A stretch of 17,227 nucleotides of DNA, taken from the NCBI GenBank assembly GCA_001873285.1, contig MNYV01000037.1, positions 1 through 17,227 of the forward strand, in the 5' to 3' direction. Positions 1,282 through 17,227 of this stretch are shown here, piece after piece. Within the stretch, counting starts at the first letter, position 1. Each line of letters starts with the position of its first letter. The stretch comes from Nitrospirae bacterium CG2_30_53_67 (lineage in GTDB: Bacteria; CG2-30-53-67). The position numbers and the translations under genes are program-made. The notes beneath the pieces were generated by a model that saw only the letters and a list, made by a program, of their open reading frames with translations, did no database searches and was not told the origin of the DNA.

Positions 1282-3090
1282 TTATAATCCCATCCCCATC
1301 TCGATGTAGCCGCACGGGCATATGAGGGAACAGATGTGACAGCCGTTGCACTTTGTGTAATCCGTGAACATGACCTGGCCCATGGGCCGGGCGAGGTCCC
1401 TGCTGACGGCCTCCCTCGGACAGTAGATGCGGCACTGATCGCAGTTGAAACACAAACCGCAGCTCATGCACCGCTTGGCTTCGGCAACGGCCTCATCCCT
1501 GGTCAGTCTCTGATAGATTTCCTGAAACCCCCGGATCCTCTCCTCTGCGGGAAGGCTTTTCTTCTCGTGCCTCGGAGCGTCCTTGTAGTAATCGAAGCGA
1601 AGATGGGTCTCTTTTATGGGCCGGATCATAGGCAGGGGCTTATATTCCCGGCCGTTGAGATAGGCCTCTATGGCCTGAGCGGCCTTGCGGCCTTCACCCA
1701 CTGAACGCGAGGAGATCCCCAGGCCCAGGACATCGCCTCCGGCAAAGACCCCATCGAGCCCGGTCTGCCGGTTGTTCCGGATATTGATCCATCCCCACTG
1801 GTTGGCCAGTTCCATCAGGCCGCCCGCAAGATCGGGCTGCTGGCCGATACCTGAGATCACGGCCGTGGCCTCTATGGTGAATTCCGACCCCTTGACAGGG
1901 ATGGGACGGCGCCGTCCGGACTTGTCAGGCTCGCCCAGTTCCATGCGGATGCATTGGATCCCGGCCACGCGTCCGTCTTGCGTCAGAATCTCAATGGGGG
2001 CCGCAAGAAATTCGATCCGGACCCCTTCTTTTTCGGCCTCCAGGATCTCGTGTCCGATGGCCGGCATCTCGGCGCGGGTCCGCCGGTAGAGAATGGCTAC
2101 CTCGGCATGGCTTAAACGCTTGGAGACACGGGCCGAATCCAGGACGGTCTGAGCCGACTCCGTATCGAACTGGTCCGCATCGCCTGCGCCCTTATGGGCC
2201 ATGCGAAGAGAGACTCGTGCCGCATCGATGGCGCTGTCCCCGCCGCCGACCACCACCACCTTATTGCCGAGATCCACTTTGACGCCGGAGTTGATCCGGT
2301 TCAGATAATCGGCGGCCGTGAAGACATTGGCCGCGTCCTCACCCGGGACATTCAGCTTGGCGCCCCGGTGGGCGCCGATGGCCACATAGACGGCGTTATA
2401 TTTTTTACACAACTCCTCAAAAGGGATATCCACACCGACCCTGGTGTTGCAGCGTAGTTCCACGCCCAGATCCAGGATGTTCTTGATCTCCCCGTCCAGA
2501 ACCTTGTCCGGAAGCCGGTAGGAGGGTATCCCGTAGCGCAACATACCGCCGGGTTTGTCATAGGCCTCAAAGATCGTAACCGGATAACCGCGGCGGGCCA
2601 ATTGATAGACACAGGAGAGTCCGGACGGACCTGATCCGATTACGGCCACCCTTTCTTTTCTCACCTTCTCGGTCAGCTTCTTGAATCTGAGCCCGCGTTC
2701 GAGACCGTGATCTCCTACCACCCGCTCAAAGTTGTTGATGGCCACGGGGCCGTCGGACTTGTTCTTTCGGTTGCAGCCATCCTCGCAGGGATGGGGACAG
2801 ATCCGGCCGTGCGTGGCGGGCATGGGATTCTTGTCCGTCAAAATGTGCCAGGCCTCGTCCAGGGCTTCTTCAGGGCTCTTCTTCTGGTATTCCGCAGCAG
2901 CCACAACCGTGAGATAACCGCGGATATCCTCGCTGCTGGGACACTCGTTCCGGCACGGCGGCATCTGCCGGACGTAAACCGGACACTTCCAGCTCTCACC
3001 GCAGGTCACCACGACGTCGGACGGTGACGCGGTTTGGTTTTTCACGATCTCCAACTGTGCGGCCCTTGCCGGGACAGATTGTATTTCCAT
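1282..3090 (-). CDS. dsrL: DsrL-like NAD(P)H oxidoreductase partner of sulfite reductase
   Basis: A 602-residue cytoplasmic iron-sulfur flavoprotein of the glutamate-synthase small-subunit (GltD) type. An N-terminal cysteine-rich cluster domain has CRNECP at about 46-51 and CPHPCEDGC at about 103-111. A FAD-binding Rossmann fold follows (VAVIGSGPSGLS, about 150-160), then an NAD(P)H-binding fold (VVVVGGGDSAIDAARVS, about 280). The C-terminal ferredoxin part holds CMSCGLCFNCDQC and CNGCHICSLICPCGYIEMG. In family knowledge DsrL passes electrons between NAD(P)H and DsrAB. Its place 13 bp after dsrB supports this over a generic GltD homologue. The start at 3090 is chosen because AGGAGGGG lies just upstream; an in-frame ATG at 3147 would overlap dsrB. 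It ends the operon. The clade (oxidative DsrL-1 or reductive-associated DsrL-2) cannot be told by eye. Confidence 0.88.
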   Translation of the reverse strand: MEIQSVPARAAQLEIVKNQTASPSDVVVTCGESWKCPVYVRQMPPCRNECPSSEDIRGYLTVVAAAEYQKKSPEEALDEAWHILTDKNPMPATHGRICPHPCEDGCNRKNKSDGPVAINNFERVVGDHGLERGLRFKKLTEKVRKERVAVIGSGPSGLSCVYQLARRGYPVTIFEAYDKPGGMLRYGIPSYRLPDKVLDGEIKNILDLGVELRCNTRVGVDIPFEELCKKYNAVYVAIGAHRGAKLNVPGEDAANVFTAADYLNRINSGVKVDLGNKVVVVGGGDSAIDAARVSLRMAHKGAGDADQFDTESAQTVLDSARVSKRLSHAEVAILYRRTRAEMPAIGHEILEAEKEGVRIEFLAAPIEILTQDGRVAGIQCIRMELGEPDKSGRRRPIPVKGSEFTIEATAVISGIGQQPDLAGGLMELANQWGWINIRNNRQTGLDGVFAGGDVLGLGISSRSVGEGRKAAQAIEAYLNGREYKPLPMIRPIKETHLRFDYYKDAPRHEKKSLPAEERIRGFQEIYQRLTRDEAVAEAKRCMSCGLCFNCDQCRIYCPREAVSRDLARPMGQVMFTDYTKCNGCHICSLICPCGYIEMGMGL

Positions 3091-3103
3091 GATCGTACCC
3101 CTC

Positions 3104-4180
3104 CTATAATCTGACCTGTGAGGATGTGTTGAATGTGGTACGGGCAAAGCGGTAATTGTCGATATGGTACTTGGTGAACGGAAAGCCCGTGACCTCGAAA
3201 AAGCGTTTCCATCCGATCCGGTCTATCCACTCGCCCATCCGTTCGTAAGGCTTGGCACTCGCTCTGTAGGCTTCAATAATCTTGCTCACGGCGGCACTCA
3301 CCTCGGGCCAGCGGGGCGGATGGTTGGGGAGCCCATAGGTAGCCAGTTTCATAAAAGAGGGACCGCTTCGGGTGCTGGCCGACTTGCCGCCGACCCAGAT
3401 AGACAGGGTGTCGGTTTCGGCGTCACGGATCTCCATGCTCGGGCACTGTCCGTGGCAGGCCCCGCAATACATGCACTTCTCTTCGATGACCTCCAGGGAG
3501 TCCCGGCCTTCCACCTTGCGGGGGCGGACCGCAGCCACGGGGCAGATGGCCACCACCTTGGGATGCTCACAGATCTGCATCTTGTCGTGACTGATCCTGG
3601 GCGGCTTGTGGTGCTGAAGATTGATGGCGATATCCGTCTGGCCGCCGCAGTTGATCTGGCAGCAAGAGGTGGAGATCTTGACACGCTGGGGCAGGCGCTC
3701 GCTGACAAAATCCTCATAGAGCGTATCCATGAGGGCCTTGACCGCGCCGGCGGCATCGGTTCCCGGGAGATTGCAGTGAAGCCAGCCCTGGGTATGGATG
3801 ATATTGGAGACCGAGGGGCCTGTGCCCCCCACGGGAAAGCCGAGGACGTCGTGGACTTCCCGAATCAGGGGATCGATATCCTCCCTGTTTGCGAGCAGAA
3901 ACTCGATGTTGCACCGGCTGGTAAAACGCAGATGACCCTGGCAATACTTGTCCGCGATCGTACAGATCTTCCGCACCGTATCCACGCTCATGGTGCGGGG
4001 GGATCCCGCCCGGACCGTGTAGAGGGCGTCCCCGCTTTCCGCCACATGCACCAGCACACCGGGACGCAGGTTCTCATGATATTTCCAATGGCCGTAATTT
4101 TTGGCCATGAGGGGGTGCAAAAACTTCTTGAAGTCCGGCGCCCCGTTGTCCCTTGGAGCCATTTTTTTCTTTGATTCCAT
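3104..4180 (-). CDS. dsrB: Dissimilatory sulfite reductase beta subunit
   Basis: A 358-residue subunit of the cytoplasmic A2B2 siroheme enzyme that interconverts sulfite and the sulfide level. The siroheme-[4Fe-4S] ligands fit the DsrB pattern: a Cys in WLHCNLP (about 135) and CCQINC (about 171-177). The inserted ferredoxin domain has a Cys in HPKVVAICPVAAV (about 215) and CMYCGACHGQCP (about 234-246). The C-terminus with ERMGEWIDRIGWKRFFEVTGFPFT is characteristic of the family. The start at 4180 has GGGAG about 8 nt upstream; an ATG two codons earlier (4186) is too close to it. dsrB lies 16 bp after the dsrA stop and 13 bp before dsrL, so the three are almost certainly co-transcribed and translationally close. 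No dsrD follows, unlike most sulfate reducers. Length and motifs are complete. Confidence 0.95.
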   Translation of the reverse strand: MESKKKMAPRDNGAPDFKKFLHPLMAKNYGHWKYHENLRPGVLVHVAESGDALYTVRAGSPRTMSVDTVRKICTIADKYCQGHLRFTSRCNIEFLLANREDIDPLIREVHDVLGFPVGGTGPSVSNIIHTQGWLHCNLPGTDAAGAVKALMDTLYEDFVSERLPQRVKISTSCCQINCGGQTDIAINLQHHKPPRISHDKMQICEHPKVVAICPVAAVRPRKVEGRDSLEVIEEKCMYCGACHGQCPSMEIRDAETDTLSIWVGGKSASTRSGPSFMKLATYGLPNHPPRWPEVSAAVSKIIEAYRASAKPYERMGEWIDRIGWKRFFEVTGFPFTKYHIDNYRFARTTFNTSSQVRL

Positions 4181-4196
4181 GATCATCTCTCCCGTG

Positions 4197-5474
4197 TTAA
4201 GAGGTTGTTTCCTCGCCTTCGAGCTCCTTGTCCACAAAGGGCGGAACTTTCTTTTCTTCCCCGGCCATTCTGGGCCGCGTGTACTCCTCGAACTTGATGT
4301 AAGGGTTGCTTCTCGGCGCTCTGACCATCTGCGGATCCGGCAGGAGCCCGATGCCGTCGAGGAAGGCGCCCAGTCCGACCCGGTCAATGAATTCCCCCAC
4401 ACGCTCGTGTTCCATCCCATTCTCGCCCCAGAAGTCCCAAATCCTCCGGACCAGGTCCGTCAGTTTTTCCCGATCCTCCTCAGTCTCCATCTTCATGAAG
4501 GGGACCAGCACGGAACTCATGGTATCGCCGATCTTCAGGCTGCGCTTTCCCCCGATCAGGATGGTCACACCCCGGTCCTTACCGATAGCCAGGGCCTTGT
4601 GCATCACGTTGATACAATGCATGCAATGGACACAGTTCTTATCGTCGATCTTGATCGTTCGGTCCTTCAGAGTCATGCACTGCGTGGGACACCGGGTGAT
4701 CACATTCTTGATGACAAACTGCTCGCCCCTCTGATCGATGAACTTGGCCGCCTCTTCCTGGTTGACCTGGATCTCGTCACGCCAGGTCCCGATGATCGGC
4801 ATGTCGGATCTCTGCATGGAGCAGGCGCAGTCATTGGCACAGCCTGAGATCTTGAACTTGTACTTATAAGGGAATTCGGGACGGTGGAGTTCACTAATGA
4901 AGGTATCGGTGATGTATTTGGTCAGCCCCAGGGTATCGAAGCAGGACATCTCGCAGCGGCCGGGCCCCACACAGCAGGCCAGGGTCCTGAGGGCCGCGCC
5001 CGACCCGCCGATGTCCCAGCCCTTTTCCATGAGCGCCTCTCCGGCCTCGAAGGTCTGTTCATTGTTGGAGCCGAGCATCAGGATATCACCGGTCATGCCG
5101 TGAAACTGCAGGATGCCGGCGCTGTGCTTCTCACTGATGTCGCAGAGTTCCCGAAGGGCCTCGGTGGAATAGACCCAGCCCGAGGGCTCAAGGATGCGGA
5201 TCGTGTTGAACCTCGCCATCTCCGGAAATTTCTCTGTTAGTTCCGAATATCGGCCGATCACACCCCCGCCGTACCCGTCGAGGTTGATCACAGTCCCCTG
5301 CCAGTAGTCGGTGCAGGTCTCGTAGGACTGCTCGAGCTGTCCCAGGAGCTGTTTTATGGCCGGCTTTTTCCTGGAGAGCTGCTTTAAGTCTTTCACGAAG
5401 CTCGGCCATGGCCCCTTTTCCAGCTCGTCCAACATAGGGGTTTTGATCTCATCCGGTTCTTTGGGTCCTGACAT
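4197..5474 (-). CDS. dsrA: Dissimilatory sulfite reductase alpha subunit
   Basis: A 425-residue subunit, first gene of dsrABL. It opens with TPMLDELEKGPWPSFVKDLK, the family N-terminus, then DGYGGGVIGRYSE. The sirohydrochlorin-cluster cysteines are CVGPGRCEMSC (about 166-176) and SGCANDC (about 208-214). The ferredoxin domain has RCPTQC and CVHCMHC (about 260-286). From memory, GGKRSLKIGDTMSSVLVPFMKMETEED and LEQSYET look closer to oxidative-type DsrA such as that of Allochromatium than to Desulfovibrio DsrA, which fits the presence of dsrL; a tree is needed. A GGGAGG lies about 8 nt before the ATG. A CRP/FNR-type palindrome lies at 5628-5649. No residue essential to the clusters is visibly missing. 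The subunit identity is certain; the physiological direction is not. Confidence 0.95.
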   Translation of the reverse strand: MSGPKEPDEIKTPMLDELEKGPWPSFVKDLKQLSRKKPAIKQLLGQLEQSYETCTDYWQGTVINLDGYGGGVIGRYSELTEKFPEMARFNTIRILEPSGWVYSTEALRELCDISEKHSAGILQFHGMTGDILMLGSNNEQTFEAGEALMEKGWDIGGSGAALRTLACCVGPGRCEMSCFDTLGLTKYITDTFISELHRPEFPYKYKFKISGCANDCACSMQRSDMPIIGTWRDEIQVNQEEAAKFIDQRGEQFVIKNVITRCPTQCMTLKDRTIKIDDKNCVHCMHCINVMHKALAIGKDRGVTILIGGKRSLKIGDTMSSVLVPFMKMETEEDREKLTDLVRRIWDFWGENGMEHERVGEFIDRVGLGAFLDGIGLLPDPQMVRAPRSNPYIKFEEYTRPRMAGEEKKVPPFVDKELEGEETTS

Positions 5475-6192: not shown

Positions 6193-6208
6193 TGGTATAA
6201 TTTTTGCA
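6193..6208 (+). promoter_or_regulatory. Sigma-54-type (-24/-12) promoter
   Basis: TGGTATAATTTTTGCA has the GG and GC dinucleotides at the exact spacing of the RpoN consensus TGGCAC-N5-TTGCA. Transcription would start near 6220, giving a leader of about 20 nt with GAGG before the ATG at 6240. The -24 element is only partly consensus (TGGTAT). Confidence 0.55.
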
Positions 6209-6239
6209 TAATTTTTTAGAAATAATGAGGAAAACTTTT

Positions 6240-8462
6240 ATGGATTATCTTTTAAAAAAATTCATCCTTGTCATCCGGCTCTTATCTTCTTTTACCCTTC
6301 TCATGCTCGGCTGTTCAGGAGGCGGGGGTGGGGGAAGTTCCCCGGCAGCCGGTGTCGAGGAGTCAGCGCCAAAAGAAGTCGTGGCCCTTTCAACCCTGGA
6401 TACCTACCAGACACCCGGCACAAGTTACAGCATCTTGAAAGACGGGAACATCGTCTATGTTGCGGATGGCTCCGATGGCTTGCTGGTCTTGGAGATTTCA
6501 GATCGTTCAACATTAAAAAAGATCGGTTCCTTACCCATCAGCCAGGGCGAGGCCTATTCCCTGGCTAAAAAAGGTCATTATCTGTATGTCGGCACATCCT
6601 CTCTGGGCGTACTGGTTGTGGACGTATCCATACCCGAAAGCCCTTCCCTCGTCTCCTCGTTCTACACCACGGGAGCTTTATATTATATCACCCTTGAAGG
6701 GGATACCCTGTATCTCAGTTCAGTGAGTGGATTCTTGAATGAATTCTTGATCCTCGATATCAGCACGCCGGATGCGCCGGTTCTAACAGGACAGGTTCAA
6801 GGATTCGATGTTTATTTACAGTCCGTCGTATCCAACCAAGTGGCCTATGTCGCCTCTTCTGATCAGGGGTTGAGCATGATCTTTATCTCTGAGCCATCCT
6901 ATGCAAAGATCATTCAAAAGATCAACATGGGATATAAGATTAATGCCGTTGAAAAATATGGAGACTACCTCCTGACGGCCGGTGAAGTAGGCGGACTCTC
7001 CATATCGGACATAAAAAATGTTTATCCAACGCCTGTTTCTTCTCTTCCATTGACTGATGAGAATTCGCAATCGAGCGACCAGCCTTCCTATCAGATCAAC
7101 GTTCAGGGTCACTATGCCTATATAGCCAACGGCAACAACGGCGTCCAGGTCGTGGACATCCAAGATCCCGCCGCGCCGTCCTTTGCCGCCCGTTTGGATA
7201 CACAGGGATTTTGCACGGATCTTTGGGTGGATGGAGACCGCATGGTTACGGCAGACGATACCCACGGCATTCATCTTATAAATATTGCGATAGAGCCTGA
7301 CAGCGACGGCGACGGCGTTGCAGACAGCAAAGATGCCTTCCCCAACGATCCATCAGAGACCTTGGATACGGATCAAGACGGCATTGGGAACAACGCCGAT
7401 GCGGATGATGACAATGACGGCGTATCGGATGCGGATGATGCCTTCCCATTGGACCCGAGTGAATGGCTCGATACGGACAATGATGGTGTTGGGGATCATA
7501 CGGATCTCTTCCCGAATGATGCCTCGGAATGGGCGGATGCAGATAAAGACGGAATCGGAGACAACGCCGACCTCGACGATGACAATGACGGTGTGCTGGA
7601 TGCGGATGATGCCTTTCCATTGGACCCGTCCGAATCCGTGGATACGGATCAAGACGGGATAGGGAACCACGCGGATACGGATGACGACAATGACGGCGTA
7701 TCGGATGCGGATGATGCGTTCCCGCTGGACTCGAGTGAAAGCGTCGATACTGACGGAGACGGGATCGGAAATAATGCGGACCTTGACGACGACGGAGATG
7801 GAAGGACAGATGATTCAGACATTTACCCGCTCGACACGGACAACGACGGCATAGACAACGACGTGGATGACGACGATGACAATGACAGTGTATCGGATAT
7901 CGTTGATGCATTCCCCCTGGATGAGGAAGAATGGGAGGACCTGAACAGCGACGGCCTCGGAGACAATTTCCCGAGCAACAGGTTTGCTGTGATTGAAACC
8001 AACTACGGCACGATCAAGCTCGAACTCTTTGAAGACCTCGTGCCCCTCACCACAAAGAACTTCATCAGCCTGGCAAAGCAGGAATTCTATGACGGATTGA
8101 CATTCCACAGGGTGATAAAGGATTTTATGATCCAGGGAGGCGATCCCAACGGAGACGGAACCGGAGGGCCGGGCTACAAGATTGTTGACGAGTTCCCTAA
8201 AGACGATTCAGGCAATCTTCTTTTGAAGCACGATGGGCCAGGCATTCTCTCCATGGCCAACTCAGGGCCCAATACGGGCGGGAGCCAGTTCTTTATCACG
8301 CTGGCGGAAACATCCTGGCTTGACGGAGTTCATACGGTCTTCGGCCGGGTGGTTGAAGGGATGGACGTGGTGCAGGCGATCGGCCTCGTGCCTACAGACA
8401 AAAACAATGATAAACCATTATCGGATGTCATCATAAACAAGGTCAGCATCACACCTTTCTGA
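6240..8462 (+). CDS. Lipoprotein with LVIVD repeats, TSP3 calcium repeats and a cyclophilin domain
   Basis: A 740-residue envelope protein. Residues 1-25 form a signal peptide ending LLMLGC, so Cys25 is the likely lipid anchor, followed by a Gly-rich linker. Residues about 50-350 hold repeats such as [25 protein letters not shown] and [15 protein letters not shown], the LVIVD beta-propeller type. Residues about 353-577 hold seven Asp-rich thrombospondin-3-type units ([22 protein letters not shown]) that should bind calcium. Residues about 580-740 are a peptidyl-prolyl isomerase of the cyclophilin family with [29 protein letters not shown] and [12 protein letters not shown], so the catalytic Arg, Phe, Gln and His residues are present. 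The start at 6240 is chosen over 6204 because 6204 lies inside the promoter and GAGG is well placed for 6240. The gene stands alone between regulatory DNA and a convergent gene. Folding of extracytoplasmic proteins is inferred; the real substrate is unknown. Confidence 0.88.
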
Positions 8463-12217: not shown

Positions 12218-15200
12218 CTATAGTTTCTCCACATTCACCATAAACGCCTTGGTCTCCGGGATCATGGTGTTCGCATCGCCGATGGTGGGCGTGAGCAGAT
12301 TCACGCTGTCTCCGCCGCTCCCGTCCTCGGGATACTGCCATCCGAAGTGGTAAGGGAGTCCCACCTGATGCACCGTGTTCCCCATGACCTTGAACGGCTT
12401 GAAGCGCGCCGTAACCATGGCTACGGCCTTGACCTCTCCGCGTGCTGAGGTGACCTTGACCCGGTCTCCATTCCTGATCCCCAGATCGGCCGCGAGTTCG
12501 CGGCTCATCTCCACAAAGAGTTCCGGCGCCATCTCCAGGAGCCAGGGCTGGTGGCGGGTCATGACCCCGGTCTGCCAGTGTTCGCTCACACGGTACGTGG
12601 TCGCCACAAAGGGATAACGGTAATCACAGGAGTAGAAGATATCCTCGGCGTTCTTCCCATCCTCCACGTAGAAAAGTTTCGCCGTAGGGTTGATCCGATG
12701 TCTGCTCGACATGGGGTTTTCCTGGATCGGGCACTCCAGCGGCTCATAGTGCTCGGGGAAGGGGCCGTCGTTTCTGTCGGGTCCGAAGATGTGGGCCGCG
12801 CCTCCGGGCTTCATGATGAAGGGATTCCTGGAGTCCGGGTTGAGGGCGCCGTCAGGCTTCTTCAGGGGAGGCCATGCCCCGTCCGGCACGTCTCCGACCC
12901 ACTTCTCATCCTTCCATTCAATGACGGCCCTTGCCGGGTCCCACGGCCGGCCGTACTCGTCCACCGAGGCGCGGTTGTAGATGATCCTCCGGTTCACGGG
13001 CCAGCACCACCCCCACTCCGGATAGAGCCCGATCCCTGAGCGGTCTTCTACTGAACGCCGGGCCATCCGGTTTCCCTCTTCAGTATAGGAATTGCAAAAG
13101 AGCCAGTTGCCCGAAGAGGTGGAGCCGTCCTCTTGAAGCAAGGCAAAGCTCGGCGCCAGCGTCCCTTTCTTGTAGAGCGTCCCCTTAATCTCTTTATCTT
13201 TCAGGAAATAACCGTTGATTTCTTTCGCGATCCGGTGCGTGTTGATCTTGTCCGGCGAACCTGCCGTATCCCCGGACCCATAATCCCAGGCGAGCTTGAG
13301 CACAGGGTCGGGAAAGACCCCTCCCTCTTGTTCATAAAGTCTCTTGACCCGGCCGTAGAGTTGGTTCACGATCTCGGCATCGGGCATGGACTCTCCCACG
13401 GGCGGAACCGCGGCGTACCGCCACTGCGCCCATCGCCCCGAGTTGGTGATGCTCCCCTCCTTCTCCACCGAAGAGGCGCAGGGGAGAAAGAAGACCTCGG
13501 TCTTGATCTCCTCCGGATTCACACCCGGGCCCCGCCAGAAGGAGCCGGTCTCATTATCGAAGAGATTGACATTCACCATCCAATCGAGCTTCCCGAGCGC
13601 CTTTCTCACCTTGCCGGCATTGGACCCGGAACAGGCCGGGTTCTGCCCCCAGGCGAAAAAGCCTTTGAACTTCCCCTGCGCCATCTCATGAAAGAGCGTA
13701 AGCCACGAGGCATCCTGCGTATCGTCCAGCTTGGGGAGCCAGGCATAACCGAAGTCATTCTCCGGTGTTGCGGCCTCACCGTACGCGGCCTTGAGGAGGC
13801 TCACCGAATATTTCGGATAATTGCCCCACCAGTTCGCGCTCATGGGCTCCTTCGTCTTGAGAGTATATTTTTCATGGTAAAGAGCAAGGCTCGTATCCGA
13901 GGCCCTTGGGGCCTTGAGGTATCCGGGGAGGGCATCAAAGAGAAGGCCGTGGTCGGTGGATCCCTGCACATTGCTCTCCCCGCGGAGCGCATTCACTCCG
14001 CCCCCGGCTCGTCCGATATTCCCGAGAAGGAGCTGGACAATGGCCATGGCCCGGATGTTCTGGGTGCCCACGGTATGCTGGGTCCAGCCCATGGCATAGA
14101 GGATGGTGGCCGCCCTGTCGGGCCGGCCTGTGGAGGCGTAGACCTTGTAGATCTTTTCAAGAAGTTCCCTGGGCGTGCCCGTGATGGAGGAGACCGTGTC
14201 CGGATCATAGCGGGAGACGTGCTTCTTCAGAAGCTCAAGCACGCAGTGGGGATCGGACAGGGCCGGGTCTTTCCTGACAACGCCCCGTTCGTCCGTCTGA
14301 AAGGCCCAGGCGGATTTATCATATTTCCTGGAGACCGGGTCATAGCCCGAGAAGACCCCGTCCAGTTCACCGGGCATTTTGAATTCCTCGTTCACCAGGA
14401 AGGAGGCGTTGGTATAAAGGCGGACATAATCTCTATGGTAGAGATCGTTTTCCAGGATATAGCGGATCATCCCCGCGATGAATGCGATGTCGGAGCCGGA
14501 ACGGATCGGGGCATAGATGTCGGCCTTGGAAGAGGTGCGCGTAAACCTGGGGTCCACGCTGATCACGGTGGCGCCCCGATCCTGCGCATCCGTGATCCAC
14601 TTAAAGGAGATGGGATGGTTCTCGGCAGGGTTGCTCCCCATGATCAGGATCACATCGGCATTCCGGATGTCGATCCAGTGATTCGTCATCGCCCCTCTGC
14701 CGAACGACTCTGCCAGAGCCGCTACCGTGGCAGAGTGTCAAATACGGGCCTGATGTTCGATGTAGACAAGCCCGATGGAGCGGAGCCATTTTTGCAGAAG
14801 GTAACACTCCTCATTGTCCAGGGCCGCACTCCCCACATGAGCGATGCCGTCGCAGCGGTTGACAAGCTGTCCCTTGTCATTGGTCTGCACAAAGGTCTCA
14901 TCCCGTGTCTTCTTGATCCTTTTCGCGATCTCATTCAGGGCCCAGTCCCATTCGACTTCTCTCCATGAACTTGCGCCCGGCGCCCGGTACATGGGCCGGA
15001 TCACCCGTTTGGGATTGTTCACAATCTGAATCAGGGATGCGCCTTTGGAGCAAAGAGAGCCTTTGTTGATGGGGTGATCGGGATCCCCCTCGATATTCAC
15101 GACCTTCCCATCCCTGGTGTGGACGATCATCCCGCACCCCACCGCACAATAGGGACAGATCGTAGTGGTCACGGCTGCCCCCTGAATCCGGTTCTCCCGT

Positions 15201-15298
15201 TCCCTGGCCTCGGCCTCGGACGAGCTCAAACCTGCAATGGCGCCTGCTGTTACTGTGGTTCCGGAGAGTTTCAGAAAGTCGCGGCGGGTCAGTGACAT
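12218..15298 (-). CDS. fdnG: Selenocysteine formate dehydrogenase catalytic (alpha) subunit
   Basis: A 1026-residue molybdenum or tungsten bis-MGD enzyme oxidising formate to CO2 outside the cytoplasm. Residues 4-13 (TRRDFLKLSG) are a twin-arginine export signal. The first [4Fe-4S] cluster is C48, C51, C55 and C83. An in-frame TGA at 14738-14740 (codon 187) must be read as selenocysteine: the sequence before (IEHQARI) and after (HSATVAALAESFGRGAMTNHW) continues the FdnG family, including the His next to Sec. The remainder has the molybdopterin motifs, for example VILIMGSNPAENHP and, near the C-terminus, RVSEHWQTGVMTRHQPWL and GDRVKVTSARGEV. GGAGG lies 7 nt before the ATG. The length is close to E. 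coli FdnG. Automatic callers will split it into a 186-residue fragment and an 823-residue fragment. It is 73 bp after the flavoprotein gene. Sec incorporation needs selA/selB/selC elsewhere in the genome. Confidence 0.95.
14708..14735 (-). promoter_or_regulatory. SECIS-like hairpin for UGA recoding in fdnG
   Basis: Directly after the TGA, the mRNA has CTCUGCCA-type arms: CTCTGCCA and TGGCAGAG pair perfectly (8 bp) around a 12-nt loop CGGTAGCGGCTC. Bacterial SECIS elements sit in exactly this position inside the coding region. The loop bears a GU step as expected for SelB binding, but the detailed fold was not computed. Confidence 0.7.
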
Positions 15299-16413: not shown

Positions 16414-17227
16414 ACTTCAATCCTTGTTTTCATGGATGGCCCTCTCAACAAAGTCAGAAGTCAGAAGTGAGAAGTCAGAAGAAAGGTTTCAATCCTTGTT
16501 TTCATGGATGGCCCTCTCAACAAAGTCAGAAGTCAGAAGTGAGAAGTCAGAAGAAAGGTTTCAATCCTTGTTTTCAAAGTTTCAATCGTGGCAACGAGTT
16601 TCAATCCTTGTTTTCATGGATGGCCCTCTTCAACTCGGTACGGAGGCTCACGAACAGCCCATTCTACGCCGTTTCAATCCTTGTTTTCATGGATGGCCCT
16701 CTTCAACCGACAACGGGAGTCAGGCCCAAAGAGGTATATTTGTTTCAATCCTTGTTTTCATGGATGGCCCTCTTCAACACACACTCGACTCTCAGATCAC
16801 TATTGAGCTTTTTCGTTTCAATCCTTGTTTTCATGGATGGCCCTCTTCAACCGGCAATGACATATATACGGACGTAGAGGAATTCTGGTTTCAATCCTTG
16901 TTTTCATGGATGGCCCTCTTCAACGAACTCTCCGGGGATTTGTGAAGGATCAATCCGCCTGTTTCAATCCTTGTTTTCATGGATGGCCCTCTTCAACCGT
17001 TCGGCATATTCCGCCTCCGAAAGCGGAATATACCGTTTCAATCCTTGTTTTCATGGATGGCCCTCTTCAACCCAGATAAGATCATCTACGAGGATATGCA
17101 GTATCTTTTGTTTCAATCCTTGTTTTCATGGATGGCCCTCTTCAACGAAGATGATCGGAGAGAGGGTTAAAAAGCTCGGGATGTTTCAATCCTTGTTTTC
17201 ATGGATGGCCCTCTTCAACACGCCCAG
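16414..17227 (-). CRISPR. CRISPR array, 12 repeats visible, runs off the right edge
   Basis: The full repeat is 37 nt, starting GTTTCAATCCTTG and ending GGCCCTCTTCAAC on the plus strand. Complete copies begin at 16598, 16671, 16742, 16815, 16888, 16961, 17035, 17110 and 17183. Copies at 16414 and 16486 lack one T near the end, the first also has AC for GT at its start, and the one at 16558 keeps only 19 nt. Unique spacers between complete repeats are 34 to 38 nt. Read on the minus strand, each repeat ends GGATTGAAAC, the usual 3' end that yields the 8-nt crRNA handle, so transcription likely runs right to left. The degenerate copies then sit at the leader-distal end, as expected, and the leader should lie beyond the right edge. 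No cas gene is in the window, so the subtype is not assigned; the handle is common in types I-A, I-B and III. Confidence 0.95.
16450..16557. repeat. Duplicated low-complexity spacer unit in the CRISPR array
   Basis: The spacers at 16450-16485 and 16522-16557 are identical 36-mers built from AGTCAGA-like heptads (AGTCAGAAGTCAGAAGTGAG and onward), and the repeat between them (16486-16521) carries the same single-base deletion as its neighbour. This indicates a tandem duplication of one 72-bp repeat-spacer unit. Confidence 0.9.

Follow-up and report, generated by a model that had tools for sequence, protein, structure and literature searches.

An oxidative-type dsrA-dsrB-dsrL operon alongside a reductive-type Dsr set in candidate phylum CG2-30-53-67

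The closest described system belongs to Nitrospirae bacterium CG2_30_53_67, for which one study (PMC7596348) reports dsrABDL-2 together with rdsrABL-2, and dsrTMKJOPCEFH elsewhere, with the suggestion that one set serves each direction. This description of a double set is repeated and extended in two later papers (Diao 2023, PMC10591310; PMC11406059), the second of which puts organisms that have DsrAB of both types at the evolutionary transition from sulfite reduction to sulfur oxidation. The rare two-direction arrangement is already published for the candidate phylum CG2-30-53-67, where it was described from one MAG. Regarding the associated flavoprotein, Löffler 2020 (PMC7596348) takes YRR, a motif of the NAD(P)-binding domain, as the mark of DsrL-2 and of NADP(H) use, activity with NADP(H) and not NAD(H) having been demonstrated only for the Desulfurella amilsii enzyme, and lists a ~32-residue insert in this domain as a feature of DsrL-1A. 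The DsrL-2 proteins of Nitrospinota, Nitrospirota, and Magnetococcia that are encoded downstream of oxidative dsrAB are called DsrL-2B in Diao 2023 (PMC10591310).

We analyzed a stretch of 17,227 nucleotides (the window), which is positions 1-17227 of contig C37 (17802 nt) in a MAG of 2.36 Mb (183 contigs, 95% complete, 0.96% contaminated). It contains a minus-strand dsr operon at 1282-5474 with the following features:

4197..5474, minus strand: dsrA, alpha subunit of an oxidative-type dissimilatory sulfite reductase, 425 aa (TIGR02064; oxidative clade, 100/100)
3104..4180, minus strand: dsrB, oxidative-type beta subunit, 358 aa (TIGR02066; oxidative clade in the joint DsrAB tree)
1282..3090, minus strand: dsrL, DsrL-2 iron-sulfur flavoprotein of predicted NADP(H) type, 602 aa (domains, tree, operon spacing)
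3647..3664, minus strand: siroheme-cluster motif CC-x3-C of DsrB, then GGQ with a two-residue deletion (alignment of 44 DsrB)
2983..2985, minus strand: Cys36 of DsrL, fourth ligand of the distal N-terminal cluster
2107..2199 (approximate limits), minus strand: insert of ~30 residues in the NAD(P)-binding domain of DsrL (alignment, tree)
2080..2088, minus strand: YRR motif of DsrL, the NADP(H) mark of DsrL-2 (alignment; position from the strand limits of the model)

This operon is real and intact. The three genes lie head to tail with gaps of ~16 and ~13 nt, a purine-rich stretch precedes each start, all three frames are open, and the cluster cysteines are retained. DsrA scored 488 bits against TIGR02064 (cut-off 393) and DsrB 473 bits against TIGR02066 (cut-off 341.5), and DsrL combines an N-terminal Fer4_20 domain, an NfnB/GltD-type flavoprotein, and a C-terminal ferredoxin domain, in the order typical of DsrL. 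The TTG listed as the dsrL start (3147) is probably incorrect; translation from the ATG at 3090, preceded by AGGAGGGG, gives the 602-aa protein.

Several other elements occur in the window. Immediately downstream of dsrL, close to where the contig begins, a group II intron reverse transcriptase/maturase is present as a fragment (174-908). The gene at 6204-8462 encodes a large exported-looking protein with LVIVD repeats, an acidic repeat stretch, and a cyclophilin-type peptidyl-prolyl isomerase domain, an unusual combination. Finally, a CRISPR array (L007) extends from 16416-17227 of the window to the contig end at 17802; it has repeats of 36-37 nt and spacers of ~35-39 nt, and its first repeat-spacer unit is directly duplicated as an exact copy (16416-16559).

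The original prediction described a compact dsrA-dsrB-dsrL operon lacking dsrD, dsrC, and dsrEFH, a DsrA close to the oxidative type, and a DsrL-like flavoprotein. The first point holds for the operon itself, since none of these genes was found in or beside it, and the two others are borne out by phylogeny. In the DsrAB tree (44 rows), all oxidative rows, including the window, form a group apart from every reductive row (support 100/100), and the window DsrAB is likewise oxidative in a mixture-model tree. The oxidative references included the sulfur oxidizers Chlorobium, Thiolinea, and Paramagnetospirillum, and the reductive ones were three solved enzymes, with sequences taken from printed alignments, together with the candidate phylum's own copies. 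The nearest relatives of the window DsrAB are from Nitrospinota, Nitrospirota, and Actinomycetota. A NIR_SIR search of the genome detected exactly two pairs, in the window and on contig C147, which ruled out the window dsrAB as the sole dsrAB of the genome; the C147 DsrAB falls among the reductive rows.

Examination of the multiple alignments revealed corresponding differences at individual positions. In particular, the DsrB mark derived here, CC-x3-C-G-[GAT] with a two-residue deletion, distinguishes all oxidative rows from all reductive rows, which have CGAVHxSD: the window DsrB reads CC-x3-C-GGQ with the deletion present in every oxidative-type DsrB compared, whereas the C147 DsrB reads CC-x3-C-GAVHCSD, the same as the solved reductive enzymes. 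Similarly, at the ligand position of the distal N-terminal cluster the window DsrL has Cys and the C147 DsrL has Arg, and in the published pattern Cys occurs in DsrL paired with oxidative DsrAB and Arg in the reductive-paired DsrL. Both proteins have YRR at the aligned position. By these sequence criteria the window DsrAB is of the oxidative bacterial type (rDsrAB), with a predicted activity in sulfur oxidation, and both DsrL are DsrL-2, with predicted use of NADP(H). The window dsrL adjoins dsrAB, and the DsrL tree places its product with other DsrL-2; in this tree, which included no DsrL-2A or Magnetococcia DsrL-2 references, the nearest rows are DsrL-2 of Nitrospirota and Nitrospinota. Judged by these neighbors, the protein would fit the description of DsrL-2B.

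The window DsrL has 33 residues in an interval where short forms have 3. This insert is a low-confidence region of the structure model, and in the alignment it sits at the insert site of DsrL-1A. On the DsrL tree constructed without the insert columns, the insert has to arise twice: in DsrL-1A and, separately, in an insert-bearing DsrL-2 clade formed by the phylum CG2-30-53-67, two Nitrospirota, and some Nitrospinota; common inheritance with the DsrL-1A insert is thereby rejected, and on this topology it was gained independently in the DsrL-2 clade of the window. The DsrL-1A proteins of proteobacterial sulfur oxidizers resemble the window DsrL in that their NAD(P)-binding domain is extended by an insert of ~30 residues, but they lack YRR at that site, are ~43-63 residues longer (645-665 vs 602 aa), and have a longer linker, and the window DsrL stands on a separate branch.

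The remaining sulfur genes are distributed over three other contigs. The gene order on C147 is dsrA, dsrB, an 83-aa gene, dsrL, rubrerythrin, NfnA, NfnB, and again rubrerythrin. C153 carries genes for CBS, HPP, and an RsbRD_N-domain protein, then dsrM, K, J, O, P, C, E, F, and H, and a gene for a HEAT-type protein; we presume the identity of dsrM, K, J, O, and P from gene order and family knowledge. C120 has the order sat, qmoC, qmoB, qmoA, two short genes, aprA, and aprB, where Sat, QmoC, AprA, and AprB are above the NCBIfam cut-offs and QmoA and QmoB were assigned from gene position together with matches of HdrA type. There is one set each of dsrMKJOP, dsrC, dsrEFH, and sat-qmo-apr. The claim that sulfite reductase is coupled to a DsrL-like flavoprotein and nothing else is therefore correct locally and fails for the genome. 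Instead of a stand-alone enzyme, the genome has another dsrAB, of the reductive type and accompanied by a dsrD-like gene, along with all genes of a reductive pathway, which is the finding that the original prediction had named as refuting it. The formate dehydrogenase and other reducer-like traits that had seemed at odds with an oxidative DsrA are accounted for by this second set. The alpha subunit of this formate dehydrogenase (window 12218-15298) has a Tat signal and an in-frame TGA at residue 187 (selenocysteine), and its gene is followed by those of an iron-sulfur subunit and an NrfD-type membrane subunit. The selenocysteine enzyme is a likely electron donor for reduction.

C147 was at one stage read as dsrABL without dsrD, which was revised when the 83-aa gene was found between dsrB and dsrL (L005 2908-3159), a position kept in six genomes. 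No match to PF08679 (DsrD) above cut-off was obtained for its product, nor across the phylum. Comparison with D. vulgaris DsrD gave an hhalign probability of 0.1% and pairwise Z of 0.8-3.9, and a PDB profile search yielded a chance match only. The structure model is a winged helix of moderate confidence; Foldseek and VIA-align retrieved winged-helix domains of many kinds, the solved DsrD being absent among the matches listed. We call this gene dsrD-like by its position and the moderate-confidence fold, the sequence tests being negative or weak. Because it is so divergent that the Pfam DsrD model misses it throughout the phylum, dsrD may be scored as absent in profile-based gene inventories. 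The reductive dsrL is directly followed by rubrerythrin and NfnAB (L005 5063-8508), a neighborhood suggesting that sulfite reduction is connected with NADPH supply and with defence against oxygen; DsrL and NfnAB as published neighbors were not found in a literature search.

The set searched contained eight genomes of the candidate phylum, of which six, including the one studied here, belong to the family of the window. Oxidative and reductive DsrA occur together in five of the six family genomes, again counting the window's own, and the sixth (89% complete) has reductive DsrA only. The oxidative DsrA of the family relatives are 81-86% identical to that of the window. In all six, the genes after the reductive dsrAB are the dsrD-like one, dsrL, rubrerythrin, and NfnAB. 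Directly upstream on the same contig, five relatives have dsrMK (four of them also JOP), dsrC, and dsrEFH; accordingly, C153 and C147 are predicted to adjoin. In the congener G003, the reductive run and the oxidative dsrABL are both present on one contig of 37.9 kb (CAKKPE010000090.1), which makes a binning error very unlikely. The window's G+C content of 56%, slightly above the pooled 53% of the other stretches read, could point to contig C37 being derived from another organism; given the G003 contig, the recurrence of both sets in five family genomes, and the contamination estimate of 0.96%, we consider this explanation scarcely credible.

In the phylum's other family, L109 9368-15392 (G007) and L118 and L119 (G006) show dsrA-dsrB-dsrL in which DsrL lacks YRR and is DsrL-1B-like. 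A second copy of dsrA adjoins these genes and retains the cluster cysteines, and the reductive dsrAB set was not found in this family.

Comparison of the window operon (1282-5474) with L108 10663-14862 and L110 7799-11979 demonstrated that its parts differ in their closest relatives. In segments of 300 nt, dsrL is 86-97% identical to that of the congener G003 and dsrAB 73-88%, whereas relative to G004, from another genus, the values are 68-77% for dsrL and 77-89% for dsrAB. The nearest relative switches at ~3050-3100, at the dsrB/dsrL boundary. In the first half of dsrA, G003 and G004 are about equally close to the window, and so it is dsrB and the later half of dsrA that carry the mosaic signal. 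Consistent with this, the DsrAB tree joins the window with G004 and G005 (94/96), and the DsrL tree joins it with G003 (98). By sequence comparison the operon is a mosaic, and the dsrAB of one of the two congeners has probably been replaced by a related copy.

We found no conserved neighbors of the oxidative operon common to the genera compared, as expected for a self-contained cassette, whereas the reductive cluster is syntenic. The differing neighborhoods and the mosaic structure would also suit a relic or passenger, that is, a laterally exchanged cassette with no present role. This seems very improbable in view of the open frames, the retained cluster cysteines, and the conservation of the operon in five of six family genomes. 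Moreover, amino-acid identity far exceeds identity at four-fold sites, by which measure the double set is under purifying selection. A double set kept in five of six family genomes, physically linked once, and under such selection is to be regarded as a lasting trait, not as one odd MAG.

Taken together, these data make it fairly likely that the genome encodes a Dsr system with two arms and that the window operon is the oxidative one (rdsrABL-2). In this arm, DsrEFH would pass sulfane sulfur to DsrC, the oxidative-type DsrAB of the window would oxidize the DsrC-bound sulfur to sulfite, and DsrL-2 would hand the electrons to NADP+; AprBA and Sat, operating in reverse, could then convert sulfite to sulfate. 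The reductive arm, dsrA-dsrB-dsrD-like-dsrL-2 with DsrMKJOP and DsrC, would reduce sulfate or sulfite; it would be fed by Sat/Apr/Qmo, and its electrons are likely to come from formate dehydrogenase and NfnAB. The location of NfnAB next to the reductive dsrL, along with what is known of the family, suggests that it would link NADP(H) to NADH and ferredoxin. Both arms would use common DsrC, DsrMKJOP, and NADP(H) pool, and the cell probably alternates between them.

Some observations speak against the oxidative arm. The dsrEFH genes are grouped with the reductive cluster and not with the oxidative dsrAB, and no clear terminal acceptor for sulfur oxidation was found in the 95% complete genome: bd oxidase was not found there, and NarG and NrfA had no match above cut-off. 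A norCBQD-like run (L125 3522-8698; G000:C146) encodes a cytochrome c, a COX1-family protein, an AAA ATPase, and a VWA-type protein. Its NorB-like COX1 protein, next to what we take from family knowledge to be a NorC-like protein, is the only complete gene of the heme-copper oxidase family found in the genome; bd oxidase or heme-copper oxidases of other kinds are encoded by several of the relatives.

The missing acceptor would be explained by disproportionation, with both DsrAB sets acting simultaneously and linked through NADP(H): the oxidative set would make NADPH (sulfur to sulfite), and the reductive one would spend it (sulfite to sulfide). Such coupling is in line with YRR in both DsrL, from which the same NADP(H) pool is predicted, and with the adjacency of NfnAB to the reductive dsrL. 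Nevertheless, we consider it unlikely, as the genome yielded no gene for YeeE/YedE (PF04143), a family whose transporters belong to the YTD clusters that have been reported from disproportionating organisms (PMC13293266), and the relatives have oxygen-reductase families. It is also rather unlikely that two DsrABL of opposite ancestry work at once, joined by NADP(H) and balanced by NfnAB, in a form of disproportionation where each half-reaction has its own sulfite reductase.

Another rather doubtful possibility is that the window set, oxidative by ancestry, is a second reductive enzyme, which under different conditions would reduce sulfite at the expense of NADPH. In favor of this, DsrL-2 depends on NADP(H), NADPH is well suited as an electron donor to sulfite, and sulfite reduction by rDsrABL-2 is considered possible in PMC7596348. 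Ancestry, the Cys ligand pattern, and the genomic DsrEFH all favor oxidation instead, and the genome already has a complete reductive set. Since, according to PMC7596348, DsrL-2 can in principle also drive sulfite reduction and may thus run either way, the original view that the direction of the pathway is open remains fair for the living cell.

For this group, predicting direction from a single dsrAB in each genome would give the wrong answer. The published CG2_30_53_67 system resembles that of the window's genome in having both sets, the three-part layout, and the same phylum; the window may come from that MAG, which the pooled G+C of 53% would also fit, or from another species of the family. 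Relative to the accessible text of PMC7596348 and PMC10591310, the mosaic operon, the insert in DsrL-2, the NfnAB neighbor, and the recurrence across the family are new. The nearest DsrAB and DsrL-2 are those of the rdsrABL-2 sets in Nitrospinota, Nitrospirota, and Actinomycetota MAGs, many with the same dsrA-dsrB-dsrL order, although several of these clusters include dsrEFH or dsrC-dsrMK and the window operon has three genes only. Desulfocapsaceae MAGs (Desulfopila, Desulforhopalus) with dsrABD and rdsrABL-2 likewise combine both types in one genome on separate contigs. However, their reductive set, as given in PMC7596348, has dsrD and lacks dsrL, and dsrEFH is missing, whereas in the window's genome DsrL-2 accompanies both sets and dsrEFH is present.
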